From the NCBI RefSeq assembly GCF_004363805.1, contig NZ_SNZP01000012.1, forward strand, positions 62,001 to 126,000: a stretch of DNA of 64,000 bases, in the 5' to 3' direction. Below the pieces are notes generated by a model that saw only the letters and a list, made by a program, of their open reading frames with translations, was not told the DNA's origin and searched no databases. This document shows, piece by piece, positions 39,007 through 55,626 of the stretch. Source of the DNA: Paludibacterium purpuratum (GTDB lineage: Bacteria; Pseudomonadota; Gammaproteobacteria; Burkholderiales; Chromobacteriaceae). Within the stretch, counting starts at the first letter, position 1; every line of letters starts with the position of its first letter. Both the position numbers and the translations under genes were made by a program.

Positions 39007-39882
39007 CTACCCAGGGCATTGCCCGCTTGGGTATTGCTGATCGGACGGGTTATAGGAAAAGGTGAAACTCGAGCGGACATCCAGCCGAATGACCGGCAGA
39101 AAGATTCCCGCCACTTGGCAAAGATCCATCTGATCGTACTTGGCGTTTGCCAAGCCTGGATTGGTGCGTTCGGAATCGTAAAAAAAGGCTTCCAGGGGCA
39201 GGCGGCTCGGCTGCCCCTGCGGCCATGACGCCGCAATCAATTCATCCCATTTTGACCAATGCCCAATAGACCCAGAATCCACGGTCGCTTTCAAAGACTG
39301 TAAAAATAGATTGGGATTAATCACGGAAAAAGTGCAATTCCGACTCGTACTACTTTGATAGGCGGCAACCCATTGTGCCGAAGTGCTGATGCCCGCATTT
39401 GGACAGGAGGCATAATCCGGCCCTGGGACCCCCGACGAGCCCCCGCAACGGTAATTTGCCGTAGAGCCAGAGGTGCCCGCATCTCGCGGATAAATGCAGT
39501 TATAGCGAATGTCGTAAAAATTATCGACAACAAAGCTTGTTGGCTTAAAGATAAATCCATTCGCATGATACAACGTATTACTCCCCTGCCATCGTTCCGG
39601 ATGCATGTCGGCGCGCCAATAGGAGAACGACACGGCATTGTTGCTAGGCGGAGGATCCCATGCGTGATAGTTGCCATGTTCGGTGGTGCGCATGATGATC
39701 CCCGAGCAGTAGTGCGCCGGCACTCGGACGCCGTCACTATCGGTGCAATCGTCCACGATGGTGTTGAACCGGGTGTTGAGCTGGGCAGCCACTTCGCTGC
39801 CCGTGGGCCCAGCCCAAGCCGCCATGCTGCCACCGACCAACCATTGCGCCAGGCAAAACACCAACAGAAATAGAGTTCTCAT
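39007..39882 (-). CDS. Halovibrin (HvnA)-like secreted protein
   Basis: A 291-residue secreted protein with a Sec signal peptide (about 1-24, cut near AWA-GP). The mature part resembles halovibrin HvnA, the family named for Vibrio fischeri ADP-ribosyl/NAD-active secreted enzymes: an early LNTRFNTIVDDC, CSGIIMRTTEHGNYHAWDPPPS, VSFSYWRADMHPER, and SWPQGQPSRLPLEAFFYDS. Several paired cysteines fit an extracellular disulfide protein. The start is ATG 39882, with AGGAGT 5 nt upstream. It lies next to the Ig-like gene array and may be secreted with it. The family match is from memory. Confidence 0.65.
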   Translation of the reverse strand: MRTLFLLVFCLAQWLVGGSMAAWAGPTGSEVAAQLNTRFNTIVDDCTDSDGVRVPAHYCSGIIMRTTEHGNYHAWDPPPSNNAVSFSYWRADMHPERWQGSNTLYHANGFIFKPTSFVVDNFYDIRYNCIYPRDAGTSGSTANYRCGGSSGVPGPDYASCPNAGISTSAQWVAAYQSSTSRNCTFSVINPNLFLQSLKATVDSGSIGHWSKWDELIAASWPQGQPSRLPLEAFFYDSERTNPGLANAKYDQMDLCQVAGIFLPVIRLDVRSSFTFSYNPSDQQYPSGQCPG

Positions 39883-39965
39883 CGCTTACTCCTTGGTGAA
39901 GCGGCCTCCAAAGTGCGATACGAATGCCAAATGGCACGTCCGCATCGCACCTTGGATCGCCAAGC

Positions 39966-42110
39966 CTATTTCTTCTTCGACACCAGTTGGAACACGTGGG
40001 CATCGGATAGCTGCGAACCGCGTACCGTGGCGGTTACCCTGAAATTGCCAACATTGGCGCCGACAAAGATACCCGGACATGGCGCAAGGCCGTCGGCACC
40101 AACGTTCGCCTCGGCTTCCATATCGCTCGTGCCGGCTATGCCGTGCAAAAAACGGGTGCCGGTTGCCGTTGCATTCGAGTCAATATCGCCATCTGCGTCG
40201 ACTTTGTCGTTGATCCGGAAATTCACCGTGCCATGTTCTACCGGATTGCCCGAGATATCCGTCACCCTGACTCGTGTCCAGCCATCATCGAACGTCTCGC
40301 CCAACACACCTTCCAAATTGGGGAAAGGCCTGCGGAATTCGACATGGGCAGGCTGGGATGCCTCGTGAACGCTGATGTTTTTGCGCGTTGAGCAAGACGG
40401 CAAGCCCGTATTGGAGATGTTAAGTCGGAATAATCCGGGGACATCGTTGATGTTCATATCTGGAACAACGGCCTTACCCTCGTCATCGGTGGAGATAAGT
40501 ATGCTTGGGCCCATATTTTGCACGAAGCGTCCGCCCGCACCGTTCGAAGTAATAATGTGGAACTGCACGTGCGCATTGGGCATGAGCGCCCCGCGCTCGT
40601 CCTTGGCCACCACCCACCAGCGATTGCGAACGGTTTCAGCGCGCGAGGCGCTCACCTGCTCGTTGATCGGCTCGAACGAGTTGATCACCTTGACTGTCAG
40701 ATCCAGCGTCGCACGCACTGTGGGGAAATCGTCCCACGTGGCCACCAATTGATATTCGCCGCCGGTTTGGCCGGCATACAGCTCCGGCGTACTGGTCATG
40801 CCATCCCGGTCGGTGGGCGGGCACTGCACGATCTGTAGCGAACCGCTAAAATACGGCACAGGGGCTTCGCTGTCCTCCGGATCGACATCGGACCCGTCTC
40901 GGTTTTTGATTGCCACCGTGACGGTGGCACCGATGACGGGATCGCCTATACCGGTATACAGCAGGAATTCCACCGGGCCGCACGCGTCGTCGACAGTGGC
41001 TGTGATCGGATCGGTTTCCGGATCCAATGTCGAGCCCTGGGGCGGGCGCCCTTCCTTGATGTGGACAGATAGCGGCTGACTCAAACCCTCGTCGCCATCG
41101 CAGGTCAATCCAATGGCGATATTACCGACGCGCGGACCGGCAATGATCGTCCCTGCGGGCAAGGTCACGATGCCGTCGCGATCGCACTGCGCAGAGAAAC
41201 TGGGCTCTCCCGTGTTGAAGTGGGTGCCGGTGGTATCCGCCGGATCGAGCGTAAACACCGCCAAGGCGTTAGGCAGCACCGGCGTTCCCGGGCCATCTTC
41301 CCGCAATTGGAAACGCAGGGCGGGGAAAGGCCTGTTAGTCGCCACATCGGCCACCGGACCATCCATCAGCGTCGCCGTAAAACCATATCGGTACTGTAGG
41401 GAGATACCGGTCACCACACAGGCACAGCCATTGCAAATTTTGTCGGCGCCGCCGTTGGGCCAGGCCGCCGACGGGCCAAAAGTCAGGTTGTAGGTTCCCG
41501 GGTTGACATGTCCTTGTTGAGCGCCATCTTGTCCAATCGCAAAGGGGTGTTGAATCCATTGCACATTGGGGGCGCTACTGCTGGTCACGTCCAGGAAATC
41601 CTGGGAGTAAGTATTCGAGCCGTTGCCAAATGTCACACGGTACTGGTGCGTGTTATTGGCTCCCGGGCTACTCAGGCAGTTGTAGCCGCTATTGAAGGGG
41701 TTACGAATGCTGTAGAAGGAAAGCACCATCTGCCCACCCCGTTGCACGACGATATCGCGCTGCATCATACTGCCGAGCGCGGTGTTTGCCGCTGTATTGG
41801 CCATGCCGGGCTGGGTTCCGGCCAAGACAACCATACCGTAGGTCTGGCCGGTGATCGCGGCGGGCAACTGCGACTGGTACTGCGTCATTAAGGCGTAGTC
41901 GCGGTCTTCGATGCGCAAGTAACCGCTAACCAGCTCCCACTCGGTCGGCATGAACCGACTGGGACTGGTAATGGAGCTGCACTGATTGTGGTCCGGCGCC
42001 CCAATTTCATCATGCACTAGCAAGCCATTGCGCAGTAAATTCCTTGGCTGTAGTGTGCCTCGCTCGGTAGAATCGGCATATCCGATGACCTCATTGTCCA
42101 AGTCCAACAT
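39966..42110 (-). CDS. Large Ig-like repeat protein with N-terminal jelly-roll domain
   Basis: A 714-residue protein of unknown function. Residues about 1-245 look like a beta-sandwich carbohydrate-binding-like domain with several cysteines (ICNGCACVVTG). The rest is a chain of Ig-like or invasin-type repeats of about 100 residues, with motifs such as DPADTTGTHFNTGE and NRWWVVAKDERGALMPNAHVQF. The latter also occurs in the proteins at 49.5-54.9 kb. There is no signal peptide, although ATG 42110 has a good GAGGAG upstream. An adhesin-like or matrix role is inferred; the export route is unclear. Confidence 0.65.
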   Translation of the reverse strand: MLDLDNEVIGYADSTERGTLQPRNLLRNGLLVHDEIGAPDHNQCSSITSPSRFMPTEWELVSGYLRIEDRDYALMTQYQSQLPAAITGQTYGMVVLAGTQPGMANTAANTALGSMMQRDIVVQRGGQMVLSFYSIRNPFNSGYNCLSSPGANNTHQYRVTFGNGSNTYSQDFLDVTSSSAPNVQWIQHPFAIGQDGAQQGHVNPGTYNLTFGPSAAWPNGGADKICNGCACVVTGISLQYRYGFTATLMDGPVADVATNRPFPALRFQLREDGPGTPVLPNALAVFTLDPADTTGTHFNTGEPSFSAQCDRDGIVTLPAGTIIAGPRVGNIAIGLTCDGDEGLSQPLSVHIKEGRPPQGSTLDPETDPITATVDDACGPVEFLLYTGIGDPVIGATVTVAIKNRDGSDVDPEDSEAPVPYFSGSLQIVQCPPTDRDGMTSTPELYAGQTGGEYQLVATWDDFPTVRATLDLTVKVINSFEPINEQVSASRAETVRNRWWVVAKDERGALMPNAHVQFHIITSNGAGGRFVQNMGPSILISTDDEGKAVVPDMNINDVPGLFRLNISNTGLPSCSTRKNISVHEASQPAHVEFRRPFPNLEGVLGETFDDGWTRVRVTDISGNPVEHGTVNFRINDKVDADGDIDSNATATGTRFLHGIAGTSDMEAEANVGADGLAPCPGIFVGANVGNFRVTATVRGSQLSDAHVFQLVSKKK

Positions 42111-42136
42111 ACTGTTTCTCCTCTTCGCTCAACCCA

Positions 42137-42156
42137 CACCAGCAGGATTGCTGGTG
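42137..42156. terminator. Hairpin between array genes
   Basis: CACCAGCA-GGAT-TGCTGGTG is a perfect 8-bp stem 43 nt after the stop of the leftward-reading gene at 42199-43284 and 27 nt before the next gene. No T-run follows, so full termination is doubtful; it may stabilise or separate transcripts. Confidence 0.4.
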
Positions 42157-42198
42157 GAACCACAGAACGGCGCGCATTCCCCTACCCCGCTTGCTTCT

Positions 42199-43284
42199 TC
42201 ATCGATGGGGAAGCCACGTAAGTGCATAGGCTTTGGCTATTTCGGGATGGCCTTCCATCATCAGCCTCAACGAGCCGGTATCGGGAACGACCACATTCGT
42301 ATCGACCGCGTACAAGGGCACCGAGTAGGGAAAGAGAGGGGTGTCTGCAGGATGTAAAATTATCGACCGGCTCTGATTGGCCGCATCCTGCAGATAGAAA
42401 GTATCCGGGAAGCCTTCATCCACCACCGCCCTGACGGGAATATAGGGCCAAGCGCTATCGCCGCTCCCGATCAAACGAATCGTGTCCGTAAGGCACGTGC
42501 CGCGGGTGATGGTGAACGGCGGTTTGTTCTCAAACGCGAACGTGTCCGCAGCGGGCGCCAGGGCCAGATCGAGGCGAGCCGGCGAACATTGCGAATTAGT
42601 CGTGCGGCAGGTCGCCACGATGGCAAACATGCCGGGGCGTTTACCCGGCACCAGCCGGGCCGCAGGCGTAATGCCGTCGGTGTAAGTGGTCAATGTCACC
42701 CGCGCCGAGGCGTTGGACTCGAAAGTGGTATCGGTGTCGCCTTGAATTTCCAGGTCGATCAGCGCTTGGTCGATGGCGGTGCCAGACGCATTCGATGCCT
42801 TGATGCGCACGGCTTTAGGGAAAAACTCGTCATCGACAAAGCCGGTTTGTTGGTCGCCTTCGATCACCGTCAGGTGATCGACATTCGGTAAGGGGTTTCC
42901 TTGCACGACGAGCGGCGCACTCGGCGTATTTTCCGCAGCGCTATTTCTCGCCAGAACGGAAAAATTGCCTGCAATGGGGCCCGCCCGCACCTGCACGGCC
43001 GCCAGACCGCCGTTGTCGGTCACGACCGAAACGGAGCGCCGCCATGTTTGGCTGCCGGTTGCATCCTGCGGGTTGCGTACCTGGGGCGCATTGGGATTGT
43101 CCGAATCCACGACAAAGGAAATGGTCTGCCCATCGACGCCTGGGTATGGCGTGACGGCCTCGACCAGCCGGGCGGTCAGTAGGTGCGAAAACGTCTCGCC
43201 GGGCGCCGCGGTCATCGGCCAAGGCAATGTATTGCGCACAAACGACAAGCTATAAAGCGTACTGCGTGGCTTTGCATTAGACAT
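42199..43284 (-). CDS. Ig-like repeat protein of the array (361 aa)
   Basis: I do not recognise this protein beyond its repeats. It has Ig-like beta-sandwich modules; a diagnostic segment is LTVIEGDQQTGFVDDEFFPKAV, closely matched in the next gene (LTITQGDRQTGFKDDQSFSAAV). Both also end with WPYIPV-x-A-V-x-E/T-G-F/Y-P-x-T-F. No signal peptide is seen. I chose ATG 43284, six to seven nt after GAGGGA, rather than the ATG at 43290, which is too close. It is a paralog of 43361-44437. Confidence 0.65.
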   Translation of the reverse strand: MSNAKPRSTLYSLSFVRNTLPWPMTAAPGETFSHLLTARLVEAVTPYPGVDGQTISFVVDSDNPNAPQVRNPQDATGSQTWRRSVSVVTDNGGLAAVQVRAGPIAGNFSVLARNSAAENTPSAPLVVQGNPLPNVDHLTVIEGDQQTGFVDDEFFPKAVRIKASNASGTAIDQALIDLEIQGDTDTTFESNASARVTLTTYTDGITPAARLVPGKRPGMFAIVATCRTTNSQCSPARLDLALAPAADTFAFENKPPFTITRGTCLTDTIRLIGSGDSAWPYIPVRAVVDEGFPDTFYLQDAANQSRSIILHPADTPLFPYSVPLYAVDTNVVVPDTGSLRLMMEGHPEIAKAYALTWLPHR

Positions 43285-43360
43285 CGTCATTCCCTCGGGT
43301 AGGATTGATCAGAGCGGCGAATTCAGATGGATACGGATAGGCGCCGCCAGGTCTACAGGA

Positions 43361-44437
43361 TCAATGTCGCGACGTGACGAATTGCAGCCGATAGCTTTTC
43401 CAAGCGTCCACATGCCCGTGGATGGAAAGCCTCAGCGCCCCGTCGGGCGACTCGGGAGCAAGTTGATCCACCGCCGTCACCGGGATCCGGTATTGCCCCG
43501 GGGACGCTTCCTCGGGGTAGACCAATATACTGGGGTGCTTATCGGTCGGCGTGCCGAAAAAGAACGTACTGGGATAACCTGTTTCGATCACGGCATCCAC
43601 GGGAATGTAGGGCCAGGAACCCCCATTGTTGTCCTGTAAGCAGAACGGTTCCGACCATATGCTGCCATGGGGGATAGGCACGGGTTCGCTAACCGCGCAA
43701 AAGTGGAAATCCCCCACTGGCGGCGCCAGGGCCAGGTCGAACTGAACGGGTGGGCATTGCGGGCTATCCGGGCAGCTCGCGCTGATGGAAAGCCGGCCGG
43801 GACGGCTGCCTGGAATCAGCGGCAGCGCGATGGTTCGGCCATTGACGGTCGTCAGGACGCGGATCTCCGCCGTGTCGCTATCTTCGAATTTCGTGCCGGT
43901 GTTGCCGCCGATGGTGAAGAGAACCGATGCATTCTCCACACCTTGTCCGGCCCAGTTTTTCGCTTGCACCTGCACAGCCGCCGAGAAGCTCTGATCGTCC
44001 TTGAACCCCGTCTGCCGGTCGCCTTGCGTGATGGTCAAGGTGGAAACCTGGGGCGGAGGCGTGACCGCCCCCGAGACACGTAGCGCTTGGTAGACCGGCG
44101 TGTTATACGCCAGGGCATGCTGCACCTTGAGCTGAAAAGCCCCGACATCGCTGCCCGCGCGCGCATCCACCGAGGCATTGCCCCTAGCGTCCGTCGTGAC
44201 GGCGGCGAACACGTCCCATGCCTCCTCCCCGCCATGTCGCCGGATCTTCGGCCGATCAAGGCTACCCGAGGACATGACGACGAAGGTAATGGATTCGCCT
44301 TCGACCGGAGCGCTGTTATTCCTATACATCAGGTGCGCTTCGACAGGCCTGGCAAAGAGCGCCAGGGGCTCGGCATCCATCGGCTCGCCGCCGACGACGG
44401 AGATCGAATAGGGCTGGTCGCCTTGTTGCGGTTTCAT
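43361..44437 (-). CDS. Ig-like repeat protein of the array (358 aa)
   Basis: A paralog of the preceding entry, of the same length and domain order: an N-terminal beta-rich part (about 1-120), then a GDRQTGFKDDQSF Ig-like module with ENASVLFTIGGNTGTKFED, and a C-terminal module with WPYIPVDAVIETGYPSTFFF. No signal peptide. ATG 44437 has GGGAG 8 nt upstream; the frame from 44473 runs into the intergenic hairpin. Function is unknown, and the tandem pair points to local duplication. Confidence 0.65.
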   Translation of the reverse strand: MKPQQGDQPYSISVVGGEPMDAEPLALFARPVEAHLMYRNNSAPVEGESITFVVMSSGSLDRPKIRRHGGEEAWDVFAAVTTDARGNASVDARAGSDVGAFQLKVQHALAYNTPVYQALRVSGAVTPPPQVSTLTITQGDRQTGFKDDQSFSAAVQVQAKNWAGQGVENASVLFTIGGNTGTKFEDSDTAEIRVLTTVNGRTIALPLIPGSRPGRLSISASCPDSPQCPPVQFDLALAPPVGDFHFCAVSEPVPIPHGSIWSEPFCLQDNNGGSWPYIPVDAVIETGYPSTFFFGTPTDKHPSILVYPEEASPGQYRIPVTAVDQLAPESPDGALRLSIHGHVDAWKSYRLQFVTSRH

Positions 44438-44452
44438 GGTGTCTGCTCCCGT

Positions 44453-44490
44453 GTAGCCCCCCACCGCCCGCAAGCGGCGGGGGGGGCTAC
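44453..44490. terminator. Very GC-rich intergenic hairpin
   Basis: GTAGCCCCCC pairs with GGGGGGCTAC, and an inner CCGC pairs with GCGG, giving about 14 pairs with one internal mismatch. It lies between the leftward-reading propeller/Ig gene (stop at 44524) and the next gene's ribosome site. No T-run. It may be a Rho-dependent or attenuating structure. Confidence 0.45.
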
Positions 44491-44523
44491 TGTGAGGACT
44501 TCAGTGGCGGTGGCCGACCGGAC

Positions 44524-46680
44524 TCAACGCGTTACCCCTGGCAGGACCCTCACCGTGCCGGACAGAGGCGTACCGTTGACGATAAAGGACACATTTTGTT
44601 CCGCCGCGCGTTGACTGAGCTGGTAGATGCAGTACTTCGCTTTCGCCTGATCGTTCAGCAGCACCGCTTCCCCCTCCCCGTTGGTGACCAACGTAATGCT
44701 GTACTGGTTATCCTTGTCTTCACCGCTGGGAGGTACAGTCACAAACGCGAAATTGCCATTATCGTCATCCATGAAGCATTGCACCGCGACGCCTTCGCAA
44801 ACCTCGTCGCCAGCTCCCGTTACCTTGATGGCGAACGAGTCGGAGTTGAAGTCGTTACCACTGGGCATCTGCCAATGATCCGGGTCGGCCAACGCGTGGG
44901 CGGGCGTCGGAGTTACAGTCAAGGTGAATGAAACCGGTCCGGCGCTCGGGTTTGTTTCCAATGCCGCCGTCAGTGTGACGGCTGCGCCGGGCGCAGCCGT
45001 GCGGGAGGCATACACATCCACCTGCGCCGTGGCATCGGGGGCGCTCACACCCTCCGTCAAGGTTTGTTGCGTACCGTCATCGTGGAAGCCCGCCGGTCCG
45101 GTGAGGGTGAATTGGATTTTGTCCGGGTAGCTCGGATCCGGATTGCCGTCCTTCATCAGTCGGATGGTCGGGGTGCCGATGCCAAACTGCTTGCCGGCCC
45201 ACGCGAAGAACTTGTTGTTGCCCTTGTAGATCTCTATGATCGGGAGCAGGCTATCCGGGTCGCCGATGGTACCCTGGTACACCGCGCTGTCGACGACTCT
45301 GCCGGCGTAGAGCAACTGAATTTGGAAGCGGTCGTAGTCCATGCCATTGCTGCCTGCCTGCAGGGTCGACACAGTAAACTGGCCTTGGGCATCGGTGACT
45401 GCCGCCAAGTGGGTTTGCCCTATGCCATCGCCATCGGTAAATAGCGCGACGCCCTGTTTGCCATTAGGGACAATGATGTTGAGATCGAAGGTCTTGCCCT
45501 CATCGGCCTGGCTACTATCACCCTTCAGGACAGATACGGTAAATTCGGGGAACATACTCCCAGGCAGTTGTACCCCGCTCGGCGGCTCGGCGCTGGCTGT
45601 ATAGCCGCTGACATCCGGATCCACCGGGCTGCTGCTTGGCTGGGCCTGAAGCAGCTTTTTTGACCCGGACTTCTGGTCGACGACAATGACTTGATCCAGG
45701 TTGCCCCCCGACACATAGCCCATCAAGTAAAGATCCGCATCTTGTGCTGCGCTCGTTTCGGTGATGCCCTGGCCGTTCGGCGGCAGGCGGTAGAGCCTGC
45801 CGGTCCTTCTGCCTGCGACGGACAGCCAGATATAATCTGCCCGGTCGCGCTGCATGCCGTAGATCCCTATATCGTCCGAATCGGGTAGACGCTGCACGGA
45901 CTCAATTTGGCGGGGCGACTTGCCCAGGTCGATAGAAAAAAGCGTCCCGGTTTGAGTTGAACCGACAAACAAAATATCCTGTGCGTTATTGAAAAGCGCC
46001 GAACGAAACCCCTGGTGACCAATGATATTCGGGGCGAGGGGAATAGTGGTGAGTTGCCCAATGTTTGGATTCTCGGTCTTGACCTGATACACGCAATTGT
46101 TACCTGGCGAAGGAATCCACAACGTTTTGTCCGACGCTCGACGCACCAGCGCAACCGAGCCCGCGCTATCGGGCAAATCCGCAAGCTTGGTGGCGGCGTT
46201 GCCGTCCGCTTTGACAGAACTGACTTTGCCCGCGGAACCGGATTGCGAAAGGAACCAGATGCATTGCGCGTCCGAATCCCAAAGCATACTGAGCGGGAAC
46301 GAGAAGAGGTCTGGCCCCAGAACACTGCCCACATTGTCGCCGTCGGGATCGCACCAATACAGACGACTGCTGCCTTTGGGGTTCTGGCCATTGTCGGCCA
46401 GCCAGATTTTCTCGACCTCAGATTTATCATCCAGTTGCAGCTCGATGTACCTCAGCCGCGCCTCACTATTCGTGCCTCCCCAGGGCGGCAGGGTGATGTC
46501 AATCGTTTCGATATCGGTGGCGGCGCCCCCCGCCGGCAACTTGTATACCTTGGCTTTGAAAGCGTTGGTACCAGTGTCCTTGACGGGGCCCTCGTCGACG
46601 ACATAGATGTCACCATTCGGTGCGGCAACGATACCCCCGGGGGAAGCCCCTGTGGGGAGTGCGAGCGGTACGATGTCCAT
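44524..46680 (-). CDS. NHL/Vgb-like beta-propeller plus Ig-like repeat protein
   Basis: A 718-residue protein. Residues about 1-330 form a six-bladed-type propeller (GIVAAPNGDIYVVDEG, LWLADNGQ-like blades, DKTLWIPSPGNN, DYIWLSVAGRRTGRLYRL), like NHL or virginiamycin-B-lyase-type proteins. Residues about 370-718 are beta-rich Ig-like modules. There is no signal peptide. ATG 46680 follows AGGAA. It combines the propeller theme (also at 61.9 kb) with the Ig theme of the array. A binding rather than enzymatic role is likely. Confidence 0.65.
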   Translation of the reverse strand: MDIVPLALPTGASPGGIVAAPNGDIYVVDEGPVKDTGTNAFKAKVYKLPAGGAATDIETIDITLPPWGGTNSEARLRYIELQLDDKSEVEKIWLADNGQNPKGSSRLYWCDPDGDNVGSVLGPDLFSFPLSMLWDSDAQCIWFLSQSGSAGKVSSVKADGNAATKLADLPDSAGSVALVRRASDKTLWIPSPGNNCVYQVKTENPNIGQLTTIPLAPNIIGHQGFRSALFNNAQDILFVGSTQTGTLFSIDLGKSPRQIESVQRLPDSDDIGIYGMQRDRADYIWLSVAGRRTGRLYRLPPNGQGITETSAAQDADLYLMGYVSGGNLDQVIVVDQKSGSKKLLQAQPSSSPVDPDVSGYTASAEPPSGVQLPGSMFPEFTVSVLKGDSSQADEGKTFDLNIIVPNGKQGVALFTDGDGIGQTHLAAVTDAQGQFTVSTLQAGSNGMDYDRFQIQLLYAGRVVDSAVYQGTIGDPDSLLPIIEIYKGNNKFFAWAGKQFGIGTPTIRLMKDGNPDPSYPDKIQFTLTGPAGFHDDGTQQTLTEGVSAPDATAQVDVYASRTAAPGAAVTLTAALETNPSAGPVSFTLTVTPTPAHALADPDHWQMPSGNDFNSDSFAIKVTGAGDEVCEGVAVQCFMDDDNGNFAFVTVPPSGEDKDNQYSITLVTNGEGEAVLLNDQAKAKYCIYQLSQRAAEQNVSFIVNGTPLSGTVRVLPGVTR

Positions 46681-46753
46681 TGCGGTATTCCTTTGTCGAA
46701 TTGGAATGCCGGCTGCACGAACATGTCGCGCAGCCGTTGCCTAGAGCCTCCCG

Positions 46754-49366
46754 TTACCACAGATAGCGAACGCCGAAATCGATGCCGAACGGCTGTTCGA
46801 TGCGCGGACCTTTGGCATACTCGGCGGCGAGATGCCATTGGGTCCGTTCGTTGAGTTGTGCGTTGAAGCCGGCGCCGATGATGGCCCGGCTACCATTCAA
46901 GTTGGTAGAGAACGAAGTGCTGTTGGTCTGCGTTTCGCTGCCCGCCCCCATTTCGGTGGCGATGGCGAGCTTGACATAAGGCGAGATCGTGCCCTTGGCG
47001 CGGCTCAGGTCGTAGGTCGAGCCCAACGTCACACCCAGTTGCGTTTGCACCGACTTGGTGCTGTCTTGCAGCACCGTCATGCCGTTGCTGAGCGAGTAAT
47101 CGCTCGCCTTGCCGTGGAACACCGCCAGCTGGGCGAAGGGTTGCAGATACGCGGCGCCGGACAGCGAGAGCTTGTGGCCGACTTCGGCCGTGGCGCCAAG
47201 GCCGTAATTGGTATGCGAGCCATCGGCCGTGCCGCCGCCGTTCATCGACACGTGCACATCGTTCGAGAAGCGGTTGGCGCGCAGGGTCAAATCCAGGTAA
47301 CTGCCATTATCGGTCAGCAAGGTGGCATAGCCGCCGAGCGTCAGACTGTCCACGGCACCGGATGAGCCGGCACCGAACGACAGGGAGGAGTGGCCATACC
47401 CCGCCAAGGCCCCGACGAACCAAACGCCCGCCTGGGTATCGATGCGCCGGTCCGCCCCGATCATCAAACCGCTCTGATTCTGGCTGTAGGAGGCGCCGGC
47501 CGAGGGGTCGATGTTATAGCGGCGGCCGTAGGTCTGTACCCAGGCGCCATCCATCCGGCTCGGATCGTTTTTCAGATCGCCCATGCGCTGGGCCAGGGTC
47601 GCGGCTTCGCCGTACCAGACCGTGGGTGCGACGTGGGCGAACGCCAAGGCATCCTTGGTCGAGTTCGACAGGTCGCCGTCGTCCTTCGGATCGTGCACCA
47701 GCTCCCAGTCGCTGCCGTTTTGCACCATATGATAGGTATACGTGCCGACGTCCACCTTATCGTTCTCGAGCGTAAACGCCCCGGTCGCCCCGCCCGGCCC
47801 TTGCACGACCACGATGTGATCCACACCGTTGGCCGGGTCGCGGCCGTCGCCGGGTACGCTCAGGGTGTAATTGCCGGAGAGAGAGCCGGTGACGACCAGC
47901 TTGTCGCTATTGCCGGTCTGAAAATCGACGTTCTCTGTGAATTGGCCGGAACCGGAAAGATTGGCGACCGTCAGGGTATGGTTCTGACCTGCCGACTGGC
48001 TGAGTGCGACCACGCCGCCCGCCATGTCCAAGTTGCCGATGCCGGACGAGCCCGTCATGGTGAACGCGCCGCCGTTGTCGACCGTGAGCGTGGAAACATT
48101 GGTTGCCACGCCGGTGATCGAACCGCCGGCATTCAGCGTGACGTTCATCTGGCCGCCGGCGCTGTTGTCGAGATTACCGGTCAGGCTGGACCCAGCGACC
48201 GTCATGGTGGTGTTCGCGCCACCCAGCGCTTGCAGGATGTCGCCGTTGCCGCCCTGGAGCTGCGTGCCGTTCGAAATGTCGATTGTCAGGGTTTGGCCGC
48301 TGCCGTCGCTGTCGGCGACGATTGCCGCGCCCGTTCCTCCGACTACCCGCGCCCCGTCGAGGGTGACCGTCCCGATATTGCCGTTGCTCGTGTTGTTACC
48401 ATAAGCGTAGATACCGTTCTGCGTGCCTTGCAGCAGACTGTTGCCGGACACGGTCAAACTGGCCGCGCCATGCCCGTTTGGGGCCGTACCATCGAGATAG
48501 ACCGCGATGCCGTTGTTGCCCTGACCGACGATAGTCGCGTTCTGATCGACCTGCAGGCTCGCGCCGGCTGCGCCGTACAGACCGAAACTACCGATGTCGA
48601 TCGACCCGGGATGAGCCGTTGCGTGTGCACCGCCGCCCACCACCTGCCCGCCATGAATCGCGATCGTCGCGCCGTTCTGTCCCTGCACGCCGGACTGATC
48701 GCCGATAATGTTGGCGCCGGTGGCAGTAAACGTGCCCGCGTCGACCGACGCCGCGGCACCAGCGGCGTGCAACGTCGAGCCCGTCAAGGTCACCGTGCTG
48801 GTGCCGAATAGGCGAATCCCATTGCTGTTCGAATTAATGACTGTCTTGTTCGTGCCGACGAGAGTCGATGCATTTTGCAACAACACGGCGGCAACCACGC
48901 TGCTATCGGTGTTATCGATCTCGACATTGTCGAGATTGATGTCCGCGCCCCCCGTCGTGACGATATACCCTGTGACGTGAGCCGCGGTGGCCCCGCCGAC
49001 GCCTGCATTGAGCGTACCGTTATTCACCTTTACCTGACCCAGCACGGTACCGCCGCCTTTGACGGTCAAAGTGCCCGCGGCGACAACGCCCGCAGCGCTG
49101 TTCGAGGTCGAGGTCGAGTTGCCGACGGTGCCGCCGTTTTCGACCGTCAAAGTGCCACTGGCGCCCACGTTGAATCCCGACGTATTGGCGCCCGTCACCG
49201 ACTGATCGTCGGTGACGTCGGCCGATCCGTTCGAAGGCACGGTGATGGTCGACGCCCAAACACCGGTGGCGCTCAAGGCCAGCGCAATGCTGACGCTCAT
49301 CGGCGCAAGGCGCGTACGTAGCGCACTCGGAAAACGGGTACACGATTTGATGTTTTTTTGGCTCAC
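46754..49366 (-). CDS. Classical (type Va) autotransporter with pertactin-like passenger
   Basis: An 870-residue autotransporter. An extended Sec signal peptide (about 1-39, ending GVWA) is followed by a passenger (about 40-590) made of short glycine/asparagine/threonine-rich beta-helix repeats such as GTLTVENGGTV. A C-terminal beta-barrel (about 600-870) ends in the aromatic FGVRYLW required for outer-membrane insertion. AAEYAKGPRIEQPFGIDFG is typical of the barrel end. The start is GTG 49366 with AGGAGT 8 nt upstream. The passenger is probably an adhesin, though a target cannot be given. A palindrome lies upstream at 49403-49418. Confidence 0.92.
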   Translation of the reverse strand: MSQKNIKSCTRFPSALRTRLAPMSVSIALALSATGVWASTITVPSNGSADVTDDQSVTGANTSGFNVGASGTLTVENGGTVGNSTSTSNSAAGVVAAGTLTVKGGGTVLGQVKVNNGTLNAGVGGATAAHVTGYIVTTGGADINLDNVEIDNTDSSVVAAVLLQNASTLVGTNKTVINSNSNGIRLFGTSTVTLTGSTLHAAGAAASVDAGTFTATGANIIGDQSGVQGQNGATIAIHGGQVVGGGAHATAHPGSIDIGSFGLYGAAGASLQVDQNATIVGQGNNGIAVYLDGTAPNGHGAASLTVSGNSLLQGTQNGIYAYGNNTSNGNIGTVTLDGARVVGGTGAAIVADSDGSGQTLTIDISNGTQLQGGNGDILQALGGANTTMTVAGSSLTGNLDNSAGGQMNVTLNAGGSITGVATNVSTLTVDNGGAFTMTGSSGIGNLDMAGGVVALSQSAGQNHTLTVANLSGSGQFTENVDFQTGNSDKLVVTGSLSGNYTLSVPGDGRDPANGVDHIVVVQGPGGATGAFTLENDKVDVGTYTYHMVQNGSDWELVHDPKDDGDLSNSTKDALAFAHVAPTVWYGEAATLAQRMGDLKNDPSRMDGAWVQTYGRRYNIDPSAGASYSQNQSGLMIGADRRIDTQAGVWFVGALAGYGHSSLSFGAGSSGAVDSLTLGGYATLLTDNGSYLDLTLRANRFSNDVHVSMNGGGTADGSHTNYGLGATAEVGHKLSLSGAAYLQPFAQLAVFHGKASDYSLSNGMTVLQDSTKSVQTQLGVTLGSTYDLSRAKGTISPYVKLAIATEMGAGSETQTNSTSFSTNLNGSRAIIGAGFNAQLNERTQWHLAAEYAKGPRIEQPFGIDFGVRYLW

Positions 49367-49402
49367 GGCGACTGACTCCTACACAAAAAAACGTTGATTT
49401 TA

Positions 49403-49418
49403 TTGATAAAATTATCAA
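49403..49418. promoter_or_regulatory. AT-rich palindrome upstream of the autotransporter
   Basis: TTGATAA-AA-TTATCAA is an inverted repeat with perfect 7-bp arms, 37 nt before the autotransporter start. It resembles FNR or CRP-family half sites, but TTGAT and ATCAA are six bases apart, not four. A regulator site is plausible; its identity is unknown. Confidence 0.4.
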
Positions 49419-49472
49419 ACCGAATATCAGACAAATCCTACAACCCACCGCTCGCGCGGCGGCTTGTACCGG

Positions 49473-52151
49473 TTACTCCAATTGATAGCGCTGCTCGGCG
49501 GTCACGCTGGCGCCGACCATGGACACCCCGATCTTGAACGTCCCGAGACGCTGGCTGCCCAGCCGGATCGCCGGCACGGGCACATAGCCGTCATAACCGA
49601 TGCTGCCGATGGGGCTCTGCTCGACGAAGTGCGTGCCGGTTTGGTCGGTGTCGTCGAGGGTAAAGCTGACCAGGCCGCTCAACATCGGGAAACCATCGTC
49701 CGCCATGGCGCGCACTCGCCCTGCTCCACCGGCCACCACGACATCGCCCATCGAGCAGGCAGGCCACCCGCGGGGCGCGTCCACGCATGCCAGGCCGCGC
49801 GCGGTTTGTCGCGGGCGCACCTCGATGACCAACCGGGCCGCGGCGCGCAGGCCGCGCGTGAAACTGTCGACATTAATATTGAAGCTGCGCGGACCGCCGT
49901 TGACATGTAACGCCGGCACCCACACGCGCCCGGTGTCCGCATCGGAGAGCGCAAAACCAAAGCTTGAGCCGTCATCGAAATGCGCCTCGGGATCGTCGAT
50001 GGTGAAGTCGACTCGCTGCTGCCCTGCCGGCCGGCCTTCGCTATCCAGGGCGAGGAAAAACCACCAGTCGTGCGCGTAGGTCGCAGCGACGACGGATTCG
50101 TTGCGCGTGACGGGGTCGAGATGATGGACCGCCGTGACGATCAACGGCAGTGTGCGCGGCGCGGCGCCGTCGCTTTCGAACAAGATCCGGTACTCCCCGG
50201 ATTGATTGCCGGCCTGGATGTTCAAGGGGTGGCCGATACCGTTGCTGCCGGTCGTGATCAACTGCAGCGATGTCAAGGTGCCGTTGTTGCTGAAGCGGGG
50301 AACGCTGCTATCGTTGCCGGCGACTGTCTGCCCGTTCTTCTGAATACGGGCGGTCAGGGGAACCGCGGGTAGCGGACGGTGCGTGGCATCGCCCAGTACC
50401 GAAACGCTGATCTGCTCGCCGGGAAAGAGGTAGAGGTCGGGCATCGAGATCGATTCGGGGTTGATGCGTATCGTCCGTTGGTCGAAAGCCGCCGCCTGGA
50501 CGGTCAACTGCCATGAACCGGCTTCATGACTATCGACGATGGCCTTGAGCTGTGCGCCGCCCATTTGCCGACCGGCGTGCAGCCGCCCTGACGGCAGAGC
50601 GATTTGGCCCTGGTCGCCCGCGACGGTTTCCGGGTACTGATGACTACCGTCCGAAAACAGGACGTCGGCATCTTGGCTGACCGTGGCGAAAGTCACGGTC
50701 TCGCCGCGCGGTAGCACCACGTCATTGCGCTTGGCGACAAACGTCATAGCCGGGAAATCGCCCTCGACCGGGGCTGTGAGTTGCGCTTCGGGCGGAGATT
50801 GCAAGGTCACCTGATAGCGATCTACCGCTTGGACAGTTAGATGCCATGTACCTGCCTCATTGCCGGCAATGCTGGCTTTGAGCTGTGCGCCGCCCGCTTG
50901 TCGACCGGCCTGCAACCGACCTTGCGGCAGATTGGCATGGCCTTGGTCGTCCGCGACGGTTTCCGTGTACTGATGGCTACCGTCCGAAAACAGGACGTCG
51001 GCCCCTTGGTTGACCGTGGAGAAGCTGACATTCGCGCCGCGCGGCAGCACCACGTCGTTCTGCTTGGCGACAAAGCTCATCGCCGGGAAAGCGCCATCGA
51101 CTGGGGCGCTGAGTTGCGCCTCGGGCGGAGATTGCAATGTCACCTGATACCGATCTGGCGGGCTCGGCCGTTTAACCGCCATGGGCCAGGTGCCGTTGTG
51201 AACGGTGACCCACGAGCCGCCCACCACGTATTGCAAGCTCAGCCCTTGCATGCCGGTGCGATCGCGGGTCACAAGCATGCCATCCGGAAGTGACACATGA
51301 CCGTTTGGCCCCATCTGCATGGCATAACTCTCCGCGGGACGGGTTCCTCCCGGCCTATCTACCCTGAAATAGGCTAAGCCCGCGATCGGAACGGCAAGGC
51401 GGACGGGATAGCCTTGCGGCAGCGGGGAGCCATTCGCGTACGTGACGGTGAACTGCATGCGCGGAAAGCTCGAGTTGATATCCGCCACCAATTGTTGCGG
51501 GGAGTCGAGGTGCCCGTAGACCTCCTCACTCGGTGAGGCGTCGCGCCACGCCAGTGTCGGCATGACAATGCAGGTATTCGGTAAGCTGACGTTATCCCGA
51601 CTGTTACGAAACACGACGACATAGCGACCGGTCTGAGAGACGCTGAATTGGAGTTCATGCGCCTGCCAGCGCTGTTCGGTATCGGCAAACATCTGCTGGG
51701 CGACAGGGATATGGCCGTTGAAATCTTGATGGGGCTCAACGCCAGGACCGTAGACACTGACGGTCATCTTCCCTCCGATAACCACACCTGACGGTTTTGC
51801 CCCGTAGTAGCTCAACGTCAGCGTGCCGGTGCGCTGAAGCTCGAAACCGAGGCCAAATTCGGCAGCCTCATTGATCGGCCCTCCGTTCCACTGTCCCAGA
51901 ACACCCCAGGCGCCGAGAAAATTAGGCATATTCCCGTTAATGGGCACAATCTCGGTATTGCCGATGCCCCAGCCGGCCAGCGAGCGGTCAAACGAAGTCA
52001 AACTCCACAGGCCTCGGCGATAGGTCCCGCTCGCTGGAATATTGGCGAGCGAGGTACCCGGGCCGATTTGGAGATTGTTCGCCAAACCCGTTTCTAGCAG
52101 CAGGTGATCGTTCGAGATGAGATTGATCCCATTCTCAGCGCGTTCGAGCAT
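49473..52151 (-). CDS. Large jelly-roll plus Ig-like repeat protein (paralog A, 892 aa)
   Basis: A 892-residue protein of unknown function. Residues about 1-215 are a beta-sandwich domain (LTLSYYGAKPSGV, TVSVYGPGVEP, GRYVVVFRNSRDNV) shared with paralogs B and C. A second module follows, then two tandem repeats of about 111 residues (starting DRYQVTLQSPPEAQL), and C-terminal modules with HDWWFFLALDSEGRPAGQQR and TDQTGTHFVEQS. No signal peptide is present. ATG 52151 has GGGAGG 6 nt upstream. It closely matches paralog B over its whole length. A surface or secreted binding role is inferred from the repeats. Confidence 0.68.
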   Translation of the reverse strand: MLERAENGINLISNDHLLLETGLANNLQIGPGTSLANIPASGTYRRGLWSLTSFDRSLAGWGIGNTEIVPINGNMPNFLGAWGVLGQWNGGPINEAAEFGLGFELQRTGTLTLSYYGAKPSGVVIGGKMTVSVYGPGVEPHQDFNGHIPVAQQMFADTEQRWQAHELQFSVSQTGRYVVVFRNSRDNVSLPNTCIVMPTLAWRDASPSEEVYGHLDSPQQLVADINSSFPRMQFTVTYANGSPLPQGYPVRLAVPIAGLAYFRVDRPGGTRPAESYAMQMGPNGHVSLPDGMLVTRDRTGMQGLSLQYVVGGSWVTVHNGTWPMAVKRPSPPDRYQVTLQSPPEAQLSAPVDGAFPAMSFVAKQNDVVLPRGANVSFSTVNQGADVLFSDGSHQYTETVADDQGHANLPQGRLQAGRQAGGAQLKASIAGNEAGTWHLTVQAVDRYQVTLQSPPEAQLTAPVEGDFPAMTFVAKRNDVVLPRGETVTFATVSQDADVLFSDGSHQYPETVAGDQGQIALPSGRLHAGRQMGGAQLKAIVDSHEAGSWQLTVQAAAFDQRTIRINPESISMPDLYLFPGEQISVSVLGDATHRPLPAVPLTARIQKNGQTVAGNDSSVPRFSNNGTLTSLQLITTGSNGIGHPLNIQAGNQSGEYRILFESDGAAPRTLPLIVTAVHHLDPVTRNESVVAATYAHDWWFFLALDSEGRPAGQQRVDFTIDDPEAHFDDGSSFGFALSDADTGRVWVPALHVNGGPRSFNINVDSFTRGLRAAARLVIEVRPRQTARGLACVDAPRGWPACSMGDVVVAGGAGRVRAMADDGFPMLSGLVSFTLDDTDQTGTHFVEQSPIGSIGYDGYVPVPAIRLGSQRLGTFKIGVSMVGASVTAEQRYQLE
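50487..51155 (-). repeat. Two tandem ~111-residue repeats inside paralog A
   Basis: Repeat 1 (51155-50823) and repeat 2 (50822-50487) both run from DRYQVTLQSPPEAQL to a final LTVQA, sharing FPAM-x-FVAK, VLPRG, ADVLFSDGSHQY, ETVA and GGAQLKA. The high identity points to recent internal duplication or gene conversion. Confidence 0.8.
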
Positions 52152-52200
52152 TTCGAGCCTCCCTCAAGGCATCTGCGACGCCATCCGAATCGGTGCGGAC
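52152..52200 (-). repeat. Conserved 49-nt leader, copy A
   Basis: The 49 nt immediately before the start of paralog A. Hand alignment gives 41 of 49 identities with copy B and 36 of 49 with copy C. It contains the ribosome site and a CCGCACC-x-x-x-TTCGGA-type segment (minus-strand sense). Conservation outside the coding frame suggests a shared regulatory or duplication origin. Confidence 0.65.
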
Positions 52201-52217
52201 GACAATGTTTCTTGGCA

Positions 52218-52251
52218 GAGCAACCCGCCACTTGCGCGCGGCGGGTTGCTC
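52218..52251. terminator. Perfect 12-bp hairpin between paralogs A and B
   Basis: GAGCAACCCGCC (52218-52229) and GGCGGGTTGCTC (52240-52251) form a perfect stem with a 10-nt loop, four nt after the stop codon of paralog B (leftward-reading). There is no T-run. A decayed version is visible after paralog A near 49441-49467, showing that the hairpin was duplicated with the gene. Confidence 0.6.
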
Positions 52252-52254
52252 CGC

Positions 52255-54918
52255 TTACCCCAATTGATAGCGCTGCTCGGCGGTCACCCCGGCGCCACCC
52301 ATGGACGCCAGGATCTTGAAGCTTCCGCGCCCCTGATTGCCCAGCCGGATCGCCGGTATGGGCACCTTGCCGTCATAGCCGATGCTGGCGGTGGGGTTCG
52401 ACTCGACGAATTGCGTGCCGGTGTGGTCGGTGTCCTCGAGGGTAAAGCTGACCTGGCCGCTCAACATCGGGAAATCATCAGCGGCCATGGCGCGCACTCG
52501 CCCCGCCCCGCCGGCCTCGATGACCTCGCCCATCCTGTCGACCGGCCAGTGGTCGGGCGCCTCCAGGAAGGCCAGGCTGTGCGCGGTTTGTCGTGGGCGC
52601 ACCTCGATGGTCAACCGGGCCGCGGCGCGCAGGCCGCGCGAGTAGGAGTCGACCGTGATGTTGAAGCTGCGCGGCCCGCCGTTGACATGTAACGTCGGCA
52701 CCCACACGCGCCCGGTGTCCGCGGCGGAGTACGCAGAGGCAAAGGACGAGCCGTCCTCGAATTGCGCCGAGGGATCGTCGATGGTGAAGTCGACCTGCTG
52801 CTGCCCGGCCGGCCGGCCTTGGCTATCCAGGGCGGTGAAATACCACCACTGATTCGCGACGGTCTCGGCGACGGCGGATTCGTTGCGCGTGGTGGGCTCG
52901 AGATGATCGACCGCCGTGACGATCAGCGGCAGGGAACGCTCGGTTGCGTTATCGCTTTCGAACAAAATACTGTATTCCCCGGATTGGTTGCCGGCCTGGA
53001 TGTTCAAGGTATGGCCGATACCGGTGACGGCGTCGGCGGTAATAAACTGCGTCACGGTGAACGTACCGTTGTTGTTGAAGCGGGGAACGCTGCCATCGCT
53101 GGCTGAAACCGTCGTTCCGTTTTTCTGGATATGGGCGGTTAGGATGGCCCCTTGTATCGGACGATGCATCTCTGCATCCAGTACCGAGAGACTGATCTCC
53201 TGGCCGTGGAACAGATGCAGGTCGGGCATCGAGATCGATTCGGGGTTGATGCGTATCGTTCGTTGGCCTGAAGTCGCCGCCCGGACGGTCAACTGCCATG
53301 CGCCGGCATCATGGTTGTCGATAATGGCCTTGAGCCGTGCGCCGCCCACTTGCCCGCCGGCGTGTAGCCGCCCTGGCGGCAGATTGACATGGCCCTGGTC
53401 GTCCGCGACGGTTTCCGCGTACTCGTGGCTACCGTCCGAAAACTGGACGTCGGCGTCTTGGCTGACCGTGGCGAAAGTCACGGTCTCGCCGCGCGGTAGC
53501 GCCACGTCGTTGCGCTTGGCGATAAACGTCATGGCCGGGAAATCGCCCGCGACTTGGGCGTTGAGTTGCGCCTCGGGCGGAGATTGCAAGGTCACCTGAT
53601 AGCGATCCGCCGCCTGGGCTTGAACGGTCAGATGCCATGAGCCGGCCTCTTGGCCACCGATGTTGGCTTTGAGCTCGGCTCCACCCGCTTGCCGACCGGC
53701 GTGCAGCCGGCCTAGCGGCAGATTGACATGGCCTTGATTGTCCGCGACGGGTTCCGTGGACTCGTGGTTACCGTTCGAAAACAGGACATCGGCGCCTTGG
53801 TTTACCGTAGTGAATGTCACGGCAGTACCGCTCGGCAGCGCCGCATTGTTGTTCGTGGCGACAAAGGTCATCGCCGGGAAATCGCGGTCGACCAGAGCAC
53901 TAAGTTGTGTCTCGGACGGGGACTGCAATGCCACCTGATAGCGTGGCTGCCGGACCTCGAAGGGCCAGGGGCTACCATTGACCTCTAACCACACATCGCT
54001 GGCCGGGTTTCGGTATCGCATGATCAACGAGTCCGTGCCGCCGAGGTTGCCGGCGCGCAGTTTGCCCTGGTCGAGAACCACATGGCCGGCCGTGTCCTGC
54101 ACACTCGTGTCGTAATCTCCTATGCCATTGTCGAAAGTGGCTAAGCCATGCGACCGAATGGCAAAGTGAATGGGAGCGCCTTGCTGCAGCGGCACTCCCC
54201 CTGCACGCGTAAGCGTGAACTGTATGCGAGGAAAGCCGGTGTTCGCATCCGCCACCAACTGTTGCGGAGAGTCAAGGTGGCCGGAGACGTCGTCACTTGG
54301 CTGAACATCGGGCCACGACAGCGTCGGCATGACAATGCAGACATTCGGTACGTCAACGTTTTGCCGGTCGTTGACAAATACGATGGCATAGCGACCCGGT
54401 TGAGAGACGTAGAACTCGAACGCATGCTCCGTCCATCGCTGCGCGCTATCGACAAACTCTGGCCGGGCGATGGGGGTATGGCCGGTAAAATCTTGATGAG
54501 GATCAACGCCCGGACCGTAGACACTAACGATCATTCGCCCGCCGCTCGCGACCCCACTCGGTTTTGCTCCGTAGTAGCTAAACGTCAGCCTGCCGGTGTA
54601 CTGGAGTTCGAATCCGACGCCAAATTCGGCCGCCTGGTTGATTGCTGTGCCGTTCCATGTCCCCAGAACGCCCCATGCGGCGAGAAAATTAGGCATAGCC
54701 CCGTGCGTGGGCACGCCCTCGACATTGTCGATGCCCCAGCCGGCCAGCGATCGATCCAAAGAAGCCAAACTCCACAGGCCTCTGCGATAGGTCCAACTCA
54801 CGGGAATATTGGCTGGTGGACTGCCCGGGCCGATTTGGAGATTGCTCGCCAAACCCGATGGTAGCAACAGGCGATCGTTCGGGATGATATTGATCCCTTT
54901 TACAGCGCGTTCGACCAT
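52255..54918 (-). CDS. Large jelly-roll plus Ig-like repeat protein (paralog B, 887 aa)
   Basis: A 887-residue paralog of the protein at 49473-52151, with the same domain order: N-terminal beta-sandwich (about 1-215), middle module, two tandem repeats of about 111 residues, then modules with NQWWYFTALDSQGRPAGQQQ and TDHTGTQFVESN. The C-terminus ends AEQRYQLG, against AEQRYQLE in paralog A. No signal peptide. ATG 54918 is preceded by GGGAGAG. It is separated from paralog A by 103 nt containing a hairpin and the shared leader. Confidence 0.68.
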   Translation of the reverse strand: MVERAVKGINIIPNDRLLLPSGLASNLQIGPGSPPANIPVSWTYRRGLWSLASLDRSLAGWGIDNVEGVPTHGAMPNFLAAWGVLGTWNGTAINQAAEFGVGFELQYTGRLTFSYYGAKPSGVASGGRMIVSVYGPGVDPHQDFTGHTPIARPEFVDSAQRWTEHAFEFYVSQPGRYAIVFVNDRQNVDVPNVCIVMPTLSWPDVQPSDDVSGHLDSPQQLVADANTGFPRIQFTLTRAGGVPLQQGAPIHFAIRSHGLATFDNGIGDYDTSVQDTAGHVVLDQGKLRAGNLGGTDSLIMRYRNPASDVWLEVNGSPWPFEVRQPRYQVALQSPSETQLSALVDRDFPAMTFVATNNNAALPSGTAVTFTTVNQGADVLFSNGNHESTEPVADNQGHVNLPLGRLHAGRQAGGAELKANIGGQEAGSWHLTVQAQAADRYQVTLQSPPEAQLNAQVAGDFPAMTFIAKRNDVALPRGETVTFATVSQDADVQFSDGSHEYAETVADDQGHVNLPPGRLHAGGQVGGARLKAIIDNHDAGAWQLTVRAATSGQRTIRINPESISMPDLHLFHGQEISLSVLDAEMHRPIQGAILTAHIQKNGTTVSASDGSVPRFNNNGTFTVTQFITADAVTGIGHTLNIQAGNQSGEYSILFESDNATERSLPLIVTAVDHLEPTTRNESAVAETVANQWWYFTALDSQGRPAGQQQVDFTIDDPSAQFEDGSSFASAYSAADTGRVWVPTLHVNGGPRSFNITVDSYSRGLRAAARLTIEVRPRQTAHSLAFLEAPDHWPVDRMGEVIEAGGAGRVRAMAADDFPMLSGQVSFTLEDTDHTGTQFVESNPTASIGYDGKVPIPAIRLGNQGRGSFKILASMGGAGVTAEQRYQLG
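53275..53943 (-). repeat. Two tandem ~111-residue repeats inside paralog B
   Basis: Repeat 1 (53943-53608) begins RYQVALQSPSETQL and repeat 2 (53607-53275) begins DRYQVTLQSPPEAQL. Both share FPAMTF, ADV-x-FS-x-G, VNLP-x-GRLHAG and end LTV-x-A. Repeat 2 of paralog B is closest to repeat 2 of paralog A, so the internal duplication predates the gene duplication. Confidence 0.8.
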
Positions 54919-54967
54919 TTTGACTCTCCCTCAGGGCATCCGCGACGCCGTCCGAACCTGTGCGGAC
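54919..54967 (-). repeat. Conserved 49-nt leader, copy B
   Basis: The 49 nt immediately before paralog B: 41 of 49 identical to copy A and 38 of 49 to copy C by hand alignment. It includes the ribosome site GGGAGAG. Confidence 0.65.
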
Positions 54968-55008
54968 GATGTACTCAGCCCGCGAACGTTCAAAACCTCA
55001 GCACTCGA

Positions 55009-55626
55009 TTAGGGGGAACTCCACGCCAGAGTAGGCATGACAATGCAGGTGTTCGGTACGGGGACGTTATCCCGACTGTTGAGAAACACGAGGACATAGC
55101 GGCCCGGCTGAGAGACGTTAAATTCGAACGTGTGCTCCAGCCAGCGCTGCTCGCGATCGGCGAACGTCCGCTGAGCAATGGGGGTGTGGCCGTTGAAATC
55201 TTGATAGGGATCAACACCCGGGCCATAGGCACTAACGGTCATCTGCCCGCCGCTCGCGACCCCGCCCGGTTTTGCCCCGTAGAAGCTCAGCGTCAGCTTG
55301 CCGGTGTACTGAGGTACGAACCCGACGCCAAATTCGGCCGCCTGGTTGATCGGTCCACCATTCCATGCCCCCAGAACACCCCAGGCGGCGAGAAAATTAG
55401 GCATATTCCCGTAAGTGGGCACGCTCTCGGCATTGTCGATGCCCCAGCCGGACAACGATCGGTCGAAAGAGGCCACACTCCACAAGCCTCTGCGATAGGT
55501 CCAGCTCATGGGGATATTGGCGGGCGGGCTACCCGGGCCGATTTGGAGATTGTCCGCCAAACCCATTTCTAGCAGCAGGTGATTGTTCGGGATGAGATTG
55601 ATCCCTTTTTCACTGTGTTCGTGCAT
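55009..55626 (-). CDS. Stand-alone N-terminal domain paralog (paralog C, 205 aa)
   Basis: A 205-residue protein matching only the first beta-sandwich domain of paralogs A and B (KGINLIPNNHLLLEMGLADN through NTCIVMPTLAW), then ending at once with SSP and a stop. All hydrophobic-core motifs of the domain are kept and the frame is clean, so it may be a functional single-domain protein. It may equally be the 5' remnant of a third full-length copy whose 3' part was lost. ATG 55626 follows GGAGAG. No signal peptide. Confidence 0.65.
   Translation of the reverse strand: MHEHSEKGINLIPNNHLLLEMGLADNLQIGPGSPPANIPMSWTYRRGLWSVASFDRSLSGWGIDNAESVPTYGNMPNFLAAWGVLGAWNGGPINQAAEFGVGFVPQYTGKLTLSFYGAKPGGVASGGQMTVSAYGPGVDPYQDFNGHTPIAQRTFADREQRWLEHTFEFNVSQPGRYVLVFLNSRDNVPVPNTCIVMPTLAWSSP

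Follow-up and report, generated by a model that had tools for sequence, protein, structure and literature searches.

A nine-gene array in Paludibacterium purpuratum encoding seven signal-less proteins of putative adhesin type

Large bacterial proteins with immunoglobulin (Ig)-like repeats include two known kinds. Intimin and invasin (type V) are recognized by an N-terminal general secretory (Sec) signal together with a membrane barrel, while large adhesins of the LapA, SiiE and BapA kind are Ig-like proteins without such a signal that leave the cell by type I secretion; repeats-in-toxin (RTX)-free examples of the latter exist. Two contractile machines also handle signal-less proteins. Substrates of the type VI secretion system (T6SS) lack Sec signals, and cargo of extracellular contractile injection systems (eCIS) may be signal-less and carry an eCIS_core domain (PF13699/DUF4157), though not all known eCIS cargo does. 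Here we describe an array in a 64,000-nucleotide stretch of the Paludibacterium purpuratum genome (the window; contig NZ_SNZP01000012.1, positions 62,001 to 126,000), which consists of nine head-to-tail genes on the minus strand at 39007-55626, numbered g1 to g9 from the distal end (coordinates, strand, count and order were checked). Seven of the products, g2-g5 and g7-g9, lack a recognizable signal. From sequence we tentatively infer a lineage-specific operon of adhesin-type modular binding proteins, with a function, a location outside the cell and a non-Sec route of exit that are all put forward conditionally.

Signal peptides were judged by hydropathy only, as the best 12-residue Kyte-Doolittle mean within the first 60 residues. 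By this measure no Sec or Tat (twin-arginine translocation) signal was found in seven of the nine proteins, whose best means were 0.44-1.43, compared with 2.42 in g1 and 2.02 in g6. An earlier sequence-only reading had contrasted the seven with the autotransporter (g6) and the halovibrin-like protein (g1) on this very point, and the contrast is upheld. Upstream alternative starts did not restore a signal. Preferred starts for two genes were chosen by their ribosome-binding sites: ATG 43284 (GAGGGA upstream) over 43290 in g3, and ATG 44437 (GGGAG upstream) over TTG 44473 in g4. Extension of the seven in frame from their preferred starts to the preceding stop added 4-21 residues, with no hydrophobic segment by eye. 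Three-frame translation of the 130 nt preceding each gene yielded two stretches exceeding 2 for the seven; that before g9 (2.27) runs into a stop, and that before g2 (2.15) is out of frame with g2. All of g7, g8 and g9 start at one and the same residue of the domain they share, and a leader of ~50 nt with an AGGGAG box recurs before each of these genes, as found by eye and by alignment of the gaps. This indicates that the absence of a signal in g7-g9 predates the duplications and is not a recent loss, an argument that is confined to these three and does not extend to g2, g3, g4 or g5.

The layout of the array is that of an operon. All nine frames are open, each with a ribosome-binding site, and intergenic gaps measure 50-106 bp with the starts initially used, or 73-106 bp with the preferred g3 and g4 starts. 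Downstream of g1, where the convergent gene 38024-38938 ends, lies a terminator-like hairpin (38937-38970, minus strand) of 15 pairs with a T-rich tail. Taken together, terminator-like sites were not in excess (10 found, against a mean of 17.0 in shuffles), but the remaining nine are shorter, with 5 or 6 pairs each. At the other end, the 5′ leader of the array (55627-56024, minus strand) is shared with a divergent operon and holds a promoter-like match at 55776-55748, of a class found 7 times against a mean of 7.0 in shuffles. Judged by their arrangement, the nine genes likely form one transcription unit.

The two partners of the signal-less proteins have signal-like N-termini and belong to secreted-protein families. 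Gene g6 (46754-49366, 870 aa) encodes a classical autotransporter (PF03797, E 1.4e-47; PF03212, E 2.8e-22). Gene g1 (39007-39882, 291 aa) encodes a halovibrin (HvnA)-type protein, as found by homology over the HvnA domain and a hydrophobic N-terminus; it shares 31% identity over 96% of its length with plasmid genes annotated hvnA/hvnB. It differs from the P. aeruginosa protein, given as 408 aa with an added DUF2599 domain (PMC3510237). Five Vibrio parahaemolyticus plasmids, some 72-87 kb in size, carry HvnA-like genes; for four of these plasmids the source field gives shrimp.

By sequence, the seven signal-less proteins fall into three groups, g2/g7/g8/g9, g3/g4 and g5 alone, with no single family shown. 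Genes g7 (49473-52151, 892 aa) and g8 (52255-54918, 887 aa) are paralogues with 67% identity over their full length. Gene g9 (55009-55626, 205 aa; ATG 55626 after AGGGAG) is a stand-alone copy of their N-terminal domain, at 74-76% identity. The product of g2 (39966-42110, 714 aa) distantly resembles the later parts of g7/g8, at 24-25% identity across some 530 residues (E about 1e-18), but its N-terminal part was not significantly like g9 (E 0.05-0.17). The second group comprises the paralogues g3 (42199-43284, 361 aa) and g4 (43361-44437, 358 aa; 35% identity, E 8e-61), and the third g5 (44524-46680, 718 aa). In profile comparisons with hhalign, the g3/g4 and g7-g9 groups were not joined, and g5 was joined to neither of them; Prob was 0.2-0.3 out of 100 and E 0.23-0.27, compared with Prob 0.1 and E 0.41 for g6 as a negative control, although profiles of two or three rows make this weak evidence of absence. 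Borderline single-sequence links were obtained in the nine-sequence set, from g2 to g3 (E 0.001-0.002) and from g5 to g4 (E 0.008).

Short motifs follow these groups. The sequence-only reading had taken three of them as modules common to one lineage-specific family. As written there, WW-x-x-ALDS-x-GRPAGQQ matched none of the nine proteins; in its corrected form, WW-x3-ALDS-x-GRPAGQQ, it occurs in g7 and g8 only. GD-x-QTGF-x-DD occurs only in g3 and g4, and TGTHF only in g2 and g7. The motifs thus mark groups, and while lineage specificity held within the searches described below, membership of a single family held only in part.

Fold assignments made in the same reading (Ig-like, jelly-roll and propeller) gained partial model support for g8 alone. 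In the g8 model, residues 205-325 could be aligned to solved Ig-like domains, and jelly-roll matches of low confidence cover residues 46-204; the fold evidence covers mostly residues 70-325, and nothing is claimed for the remainder. The protein would consist of a jelly-roll-like N-terminal domain followed by a series of Ig-like domains, one of them supported by the model. Complement/macroglobulin proteins made up most of the best 50 Foldseek matches listed, and at TM-scores ≤0.16 they were rejected as whole-length relatives. The g4 product is Ig-like by sequence pattern only. In g5, propeller and Ig-like parts are putative: its model was unusable (mean pLDDT 35.6), and both propeller-type matches were below cut-off (NHL, E 0.059; Vgb(B), E 0.025). 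A sequence search of solved structures returned nothing at E 1 for g1 or g5. Rows obtained there for two array alignments, with best E of 0.18 and 0.017 (the latter a designed protein), were not taken as relatives.

Compared with Big_1 and intimin/invasin Ig-like repeat proteins, the seven have no signal peptide, outer-membrane barrel or anchor, and so lack the features by which type V proteins are recognized. None has a Pfam match over cut-off; the best, that of g2 to Big_1 (E 0.00043), scored 20.8 bits against a gathering score of 34.9. In PHROGs, the unknown-function family phrog_35373 matched 37-39 residues of an Ig repeat (E 3.5e-6 in g8, 3.7e-4 in g7), and no phage record followed from this match. 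With type I-secreted large adhesins the seven share the lack of an N-terminal Sec signal and a putative Ig-like make-up. They differ in their size of just 205-892 residues, in the absence of the RTX motif GGxGxDx[LIVF] from all nine array proteins, and in that no ATP-binding cassette (ABC) exporter was recognized beside the array.

A check for linked export genes, as had been proposed, was made on the window. No protein-export gene for the array was recognized among the 29 window open reading frames (ORFs) scanned against Pfam, a search for exporters that was not genome-wide. The divergent neighbour looks like a resistance-nodulation-division (RND) efflux operon, with outer-membrane factor, HlyD-like and RND genes named by reading their translations.

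We consider adhesin-type binding proteins outside the cell to be the best, if tentative, account of these data. The strings of Ig-like domains, placed in g7 and g8 behind the jelly-roll-like domain that g9 carries alone, would bind a surface or matrix polymer, and would act alongside the autotransporter g6 and the HvnA-type enzyme g1. Exit of the seven would be by a non-Sec route, possibly through a T6SS, through a type I-like exporter encoded at another locus, or by lysis. This account is favoured by the secreted character of the operon partners, by the operon layout with its terminator, and by well-placed ribosome-binding sites with no signal in any of the seven. Cysteines may add to it. A pair of them, at a spacing of six or seven residues, is conserved between g3 and g4, and this pair, like the 11 cysteines of g2, would fit disulfides formed outside the cytoplasm. 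Several observations weigh on the other side. The disulfide argument does not extend to g8 and g9, with one cysteine each; g5 is unrelated by sequence to the other groups; and neither an export gene in the window, nor an RTX motif, nor a cargo domain was recognized. Moreover, adhesion is deduced from a common fold that is also found inside cells, and a protein without a signal is cytoplasmic by default.

The main alternative, which we regard as somewhat unlikely, is that the seven are cytoplasmic Ig-like or jelly-roll scaffolds, inclusions or polysaccharide-binding proteins that are never exported. Signal-like N-termini are absent from all seven, the scanned ORFs of the window include no linked protein exporter, and glycosyltransferase genes lie close by, as this alternative would have it. 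It sits poorly with the adhesin-like repeats, with the fast divergence in places, and with the signal-like N-termini of g1 and g6.

The mode of sequence divergence bears on both of these readings. Between g7 and g8, synonymous divergence (dS) was 0.41 and non-synonymous divergence (dN) 0.21, giving a dN/dS of 0.52 (codon bootstrap 0.43-0.63); between g8 and g9, dS was 0.41 and dN 0.157. When g7/g8 were divided into six segments drawn by hand, dN/dS ranged from 0.26 (residues 329-436; 0.14-0.46) to 0.84 (residues 701-887; 0.55-1.31). The interval of the latter includes 1, as does that of residues 205-328 (0.67, 0.44-1.03), and positive selection was found in none of the six. The genes g7 and g8 are thus constrained as proteins under overall purifying selection, with fast divergence in places, as binding proteins often are. 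Residues 437-545 and 701-887 have a low dS, 0.21 and 0.20 compared with 0.41 for the whole gene; this suggests gene conversion in parts of g7/g8.

The same values speak to the notion that the array holds decaying or truncated secreted adhesins whose signals and function have been lost. It could explain why g9 consists of the N-terminal domain only, and why two of the six segments have intervals that include 1. We nevertheless hold it to be quite improbable, as the nine frames are open and have ribosome-binding sites, g7-g9 are alike in lacking a signal, and the dN/dS interval for the whole of g7/g8 lies below 1.

Contractile systems were considered next to the preferred reading, since the seven had been suggested as cargo of one. 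The genome does encode such machines. An eCIS locus on contig C1 comprises a sheath gene (PF17482 over cut-off; PF04984 just below), tube (PF19266), baseplate J (PF04865), tape measure (PF19268) and an AAA ATPase, and is followed by two eCIS_core (PF13699) genes (L013:13263-14825, L014:1247-12542, L037:81-2512). Two T6SS sheath loci, with VipB over cut-off, are present as well, on other contigs than the array.

Delivery into or onto other cells by either T6SS would agree with these two VipB loci and with the lack of Sec signals that is usual among T6SS substrates. A domain scan found no VgrG, PAAR, Hcp or known T6SS effector domain in any of the seven, and the sheath genes are not on the contig of the array; both points make this route improbable, with the proviso that free T6SS cargo effectors need neither a fusion to VgrG, PAAR or Hcp nor a known effector domain.

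A role as cargo or fibre parts of the eCIS in the same genome is less probable still. In the 34-contig draft, the array occupies about 101-118 kb of the 154-kb contig C12 and the eCIS about 184-207 kb of the 429-kb contig C1, and from these positions they are at least about 200 kb apart. The seven are signal-less, as eCIS_core cargo is, but are unlinked to the locus, which already has linked cargo of its own, and a Pfam scan found the eCIS_core (DUF4157) domain in none of them. Nor are their N-termini strongly hydrophilic. Hydropathy sums over the first 35 residues, used here in place of the published eCIS score, were +13.5 to -18.3. The two eCIS_core proteins linked to the locus have -48.5 and -46.4, and a value of -36.9 is published for the Pdp1 signal (PMC11297309). 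An aromatic residue within the first eight was found in none of the seven; this trait says little, since one of the two eCIS_core proteins also lacks it. According to the same paper (PMC11297309), eCIS toxin prediction is influenced most by how far a gene lies from the last core gene, by the hydrophobicity and order of the N-terminus, and by cloud domains, and absence of a Sec signal carries no weight; signal absence alone is therefore no argument for eCIS. With respect to fibres, those of eCIS can include Ig folds, macroglobulin-like domains and propellers (PMC12923769), and a putative fibre with Ig-like folds is described for the Algoriphagus eCIS (PMC8894135). Such precedents are compatible with a fibre role, which for the array proteins is unsupported. 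The suggestion of contractile cargo thus stands insofar as the genome has the machinery, and fails on linkage, domain and N-terminus. Literature searches on Ig-like eCIS cargo, and on Ig-like adhesins that lack a signal together with type I secretion, had no title describing such an operon among those listed, though one may still be in print.

Relatives of the array proteins were sought in samples of 61-399 genomes, which overlap and whose counts include the window's own genome. In each case the only match was that genome itself: for g8, 1 of 61 genomes of the family, for g2, 1 of 369 of the class, and for g3/g4, 1 of 398 of the phylum (all at E 1e-5); and at E 0.001, 1 of 399 genomes of the order for the N-terminal alignment, 1 of 350 of the class for g5 and 1 of 378 of the phylum for g7-g9. 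Two pattern scans of an 84,980-species genome collection gave 34 and 75 pattern matches, none confirmed as a relative; these scans used few short peptide patterns, would not pick up distant relatives and may omit the genome of the window itself. Four pattern scans of viral contigs likewise confirmed no relative. Plasmid and phage records held no relative of g8 or g2, and phage records none of the Ig part of g8. A Curtobacterium record for g3 (E 0.01 only) and a Streptomyces record for g5 (E 0.9 only), both from the plasmid and phage records, were rejected. PADLOC gave no match for the seven at E 0.01.

The chromosomal setting differs between congeners. A molybdopterin oxidoreductase gene (25878-28184) and the RND operon (56025-61888) are neighbours in two congeners too. 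The interval between them is 27.8 kb here, whereas G042 has about 6.6 kb and G041 about 2.9 kb; in the other three congeners the RND outer-membrane gene lacks a close counterpart (best identity 32-36%). Array proteins were unmatched in the G042 and G041 interval at E 1e-5, and at E 1 matched just five short pieces (best E 0.33). Because the interval differs between congeners, the array and its neighbouring glycosyltransferase genes appear to occupy a variable spot. Composition does not mark the array as recent, since its G+C content at third codon positions (GC3), 0.61-0.79 overall and 0.69-0.74 for the signal-less proteins, resembles the values of eight backbone genes (0.68-0.80).

Other features of the region were noted. 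Both congeners have, divergent to the RND operon, an ORF that reads as TetR-like (L031:17347-17976, L033:1544-2383), where this genome has the array leader instead. Among the glycosyltransferase genes, 36943-37884 has a match to GINT1_N (E 6.7e-51), a domain named after glucosamine inositolphosphorylceramide transferase. Between the RND operon and a collagenase gene lies 61912-63048, which encodes a 378-aa protein with no signal by eye, no Pfam match, a propeller-like appearance by eye and a GC3 of 0.545; it was unmatched in the same stretch of G042 at E 1e-5. As a second putative propeller gene it was compared with g5, and kinship was rejected (BLASTP best E 0.20). In the product of the collagenase-family gene (63143-64000, continuing at L015:1-1104), the N-terminus is signal-like and a Peptidase_M9 N-terminal domain was matched (E 3.2e-19).

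A genome-wide search with the N-terminal domain of g7-g9, also proposed earlier, was carried out. At E 1 the profile found four places, all within the array and all corresponding to the four sequences in the profile, with no further copy. We view as very unlikely a reading in which this domain is the export or loading module of an unrecognized Sec-independent route, g9 a carrier or plug, and the operon a self-contained delivery set. Such a reading would be confined to g7-g9, because g2 does not significantly share the domain.

Should the seven proteins be found outside the cell, their exit route would be one that is not visible in their sequence, and export information would be sought first in the domain that stands alone in g9 and heads g7 and g8. 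Should they stay inside, adhesin-like architecture would not by itself mean a surface location. The operon makes this question of location testable by simple fractionation.

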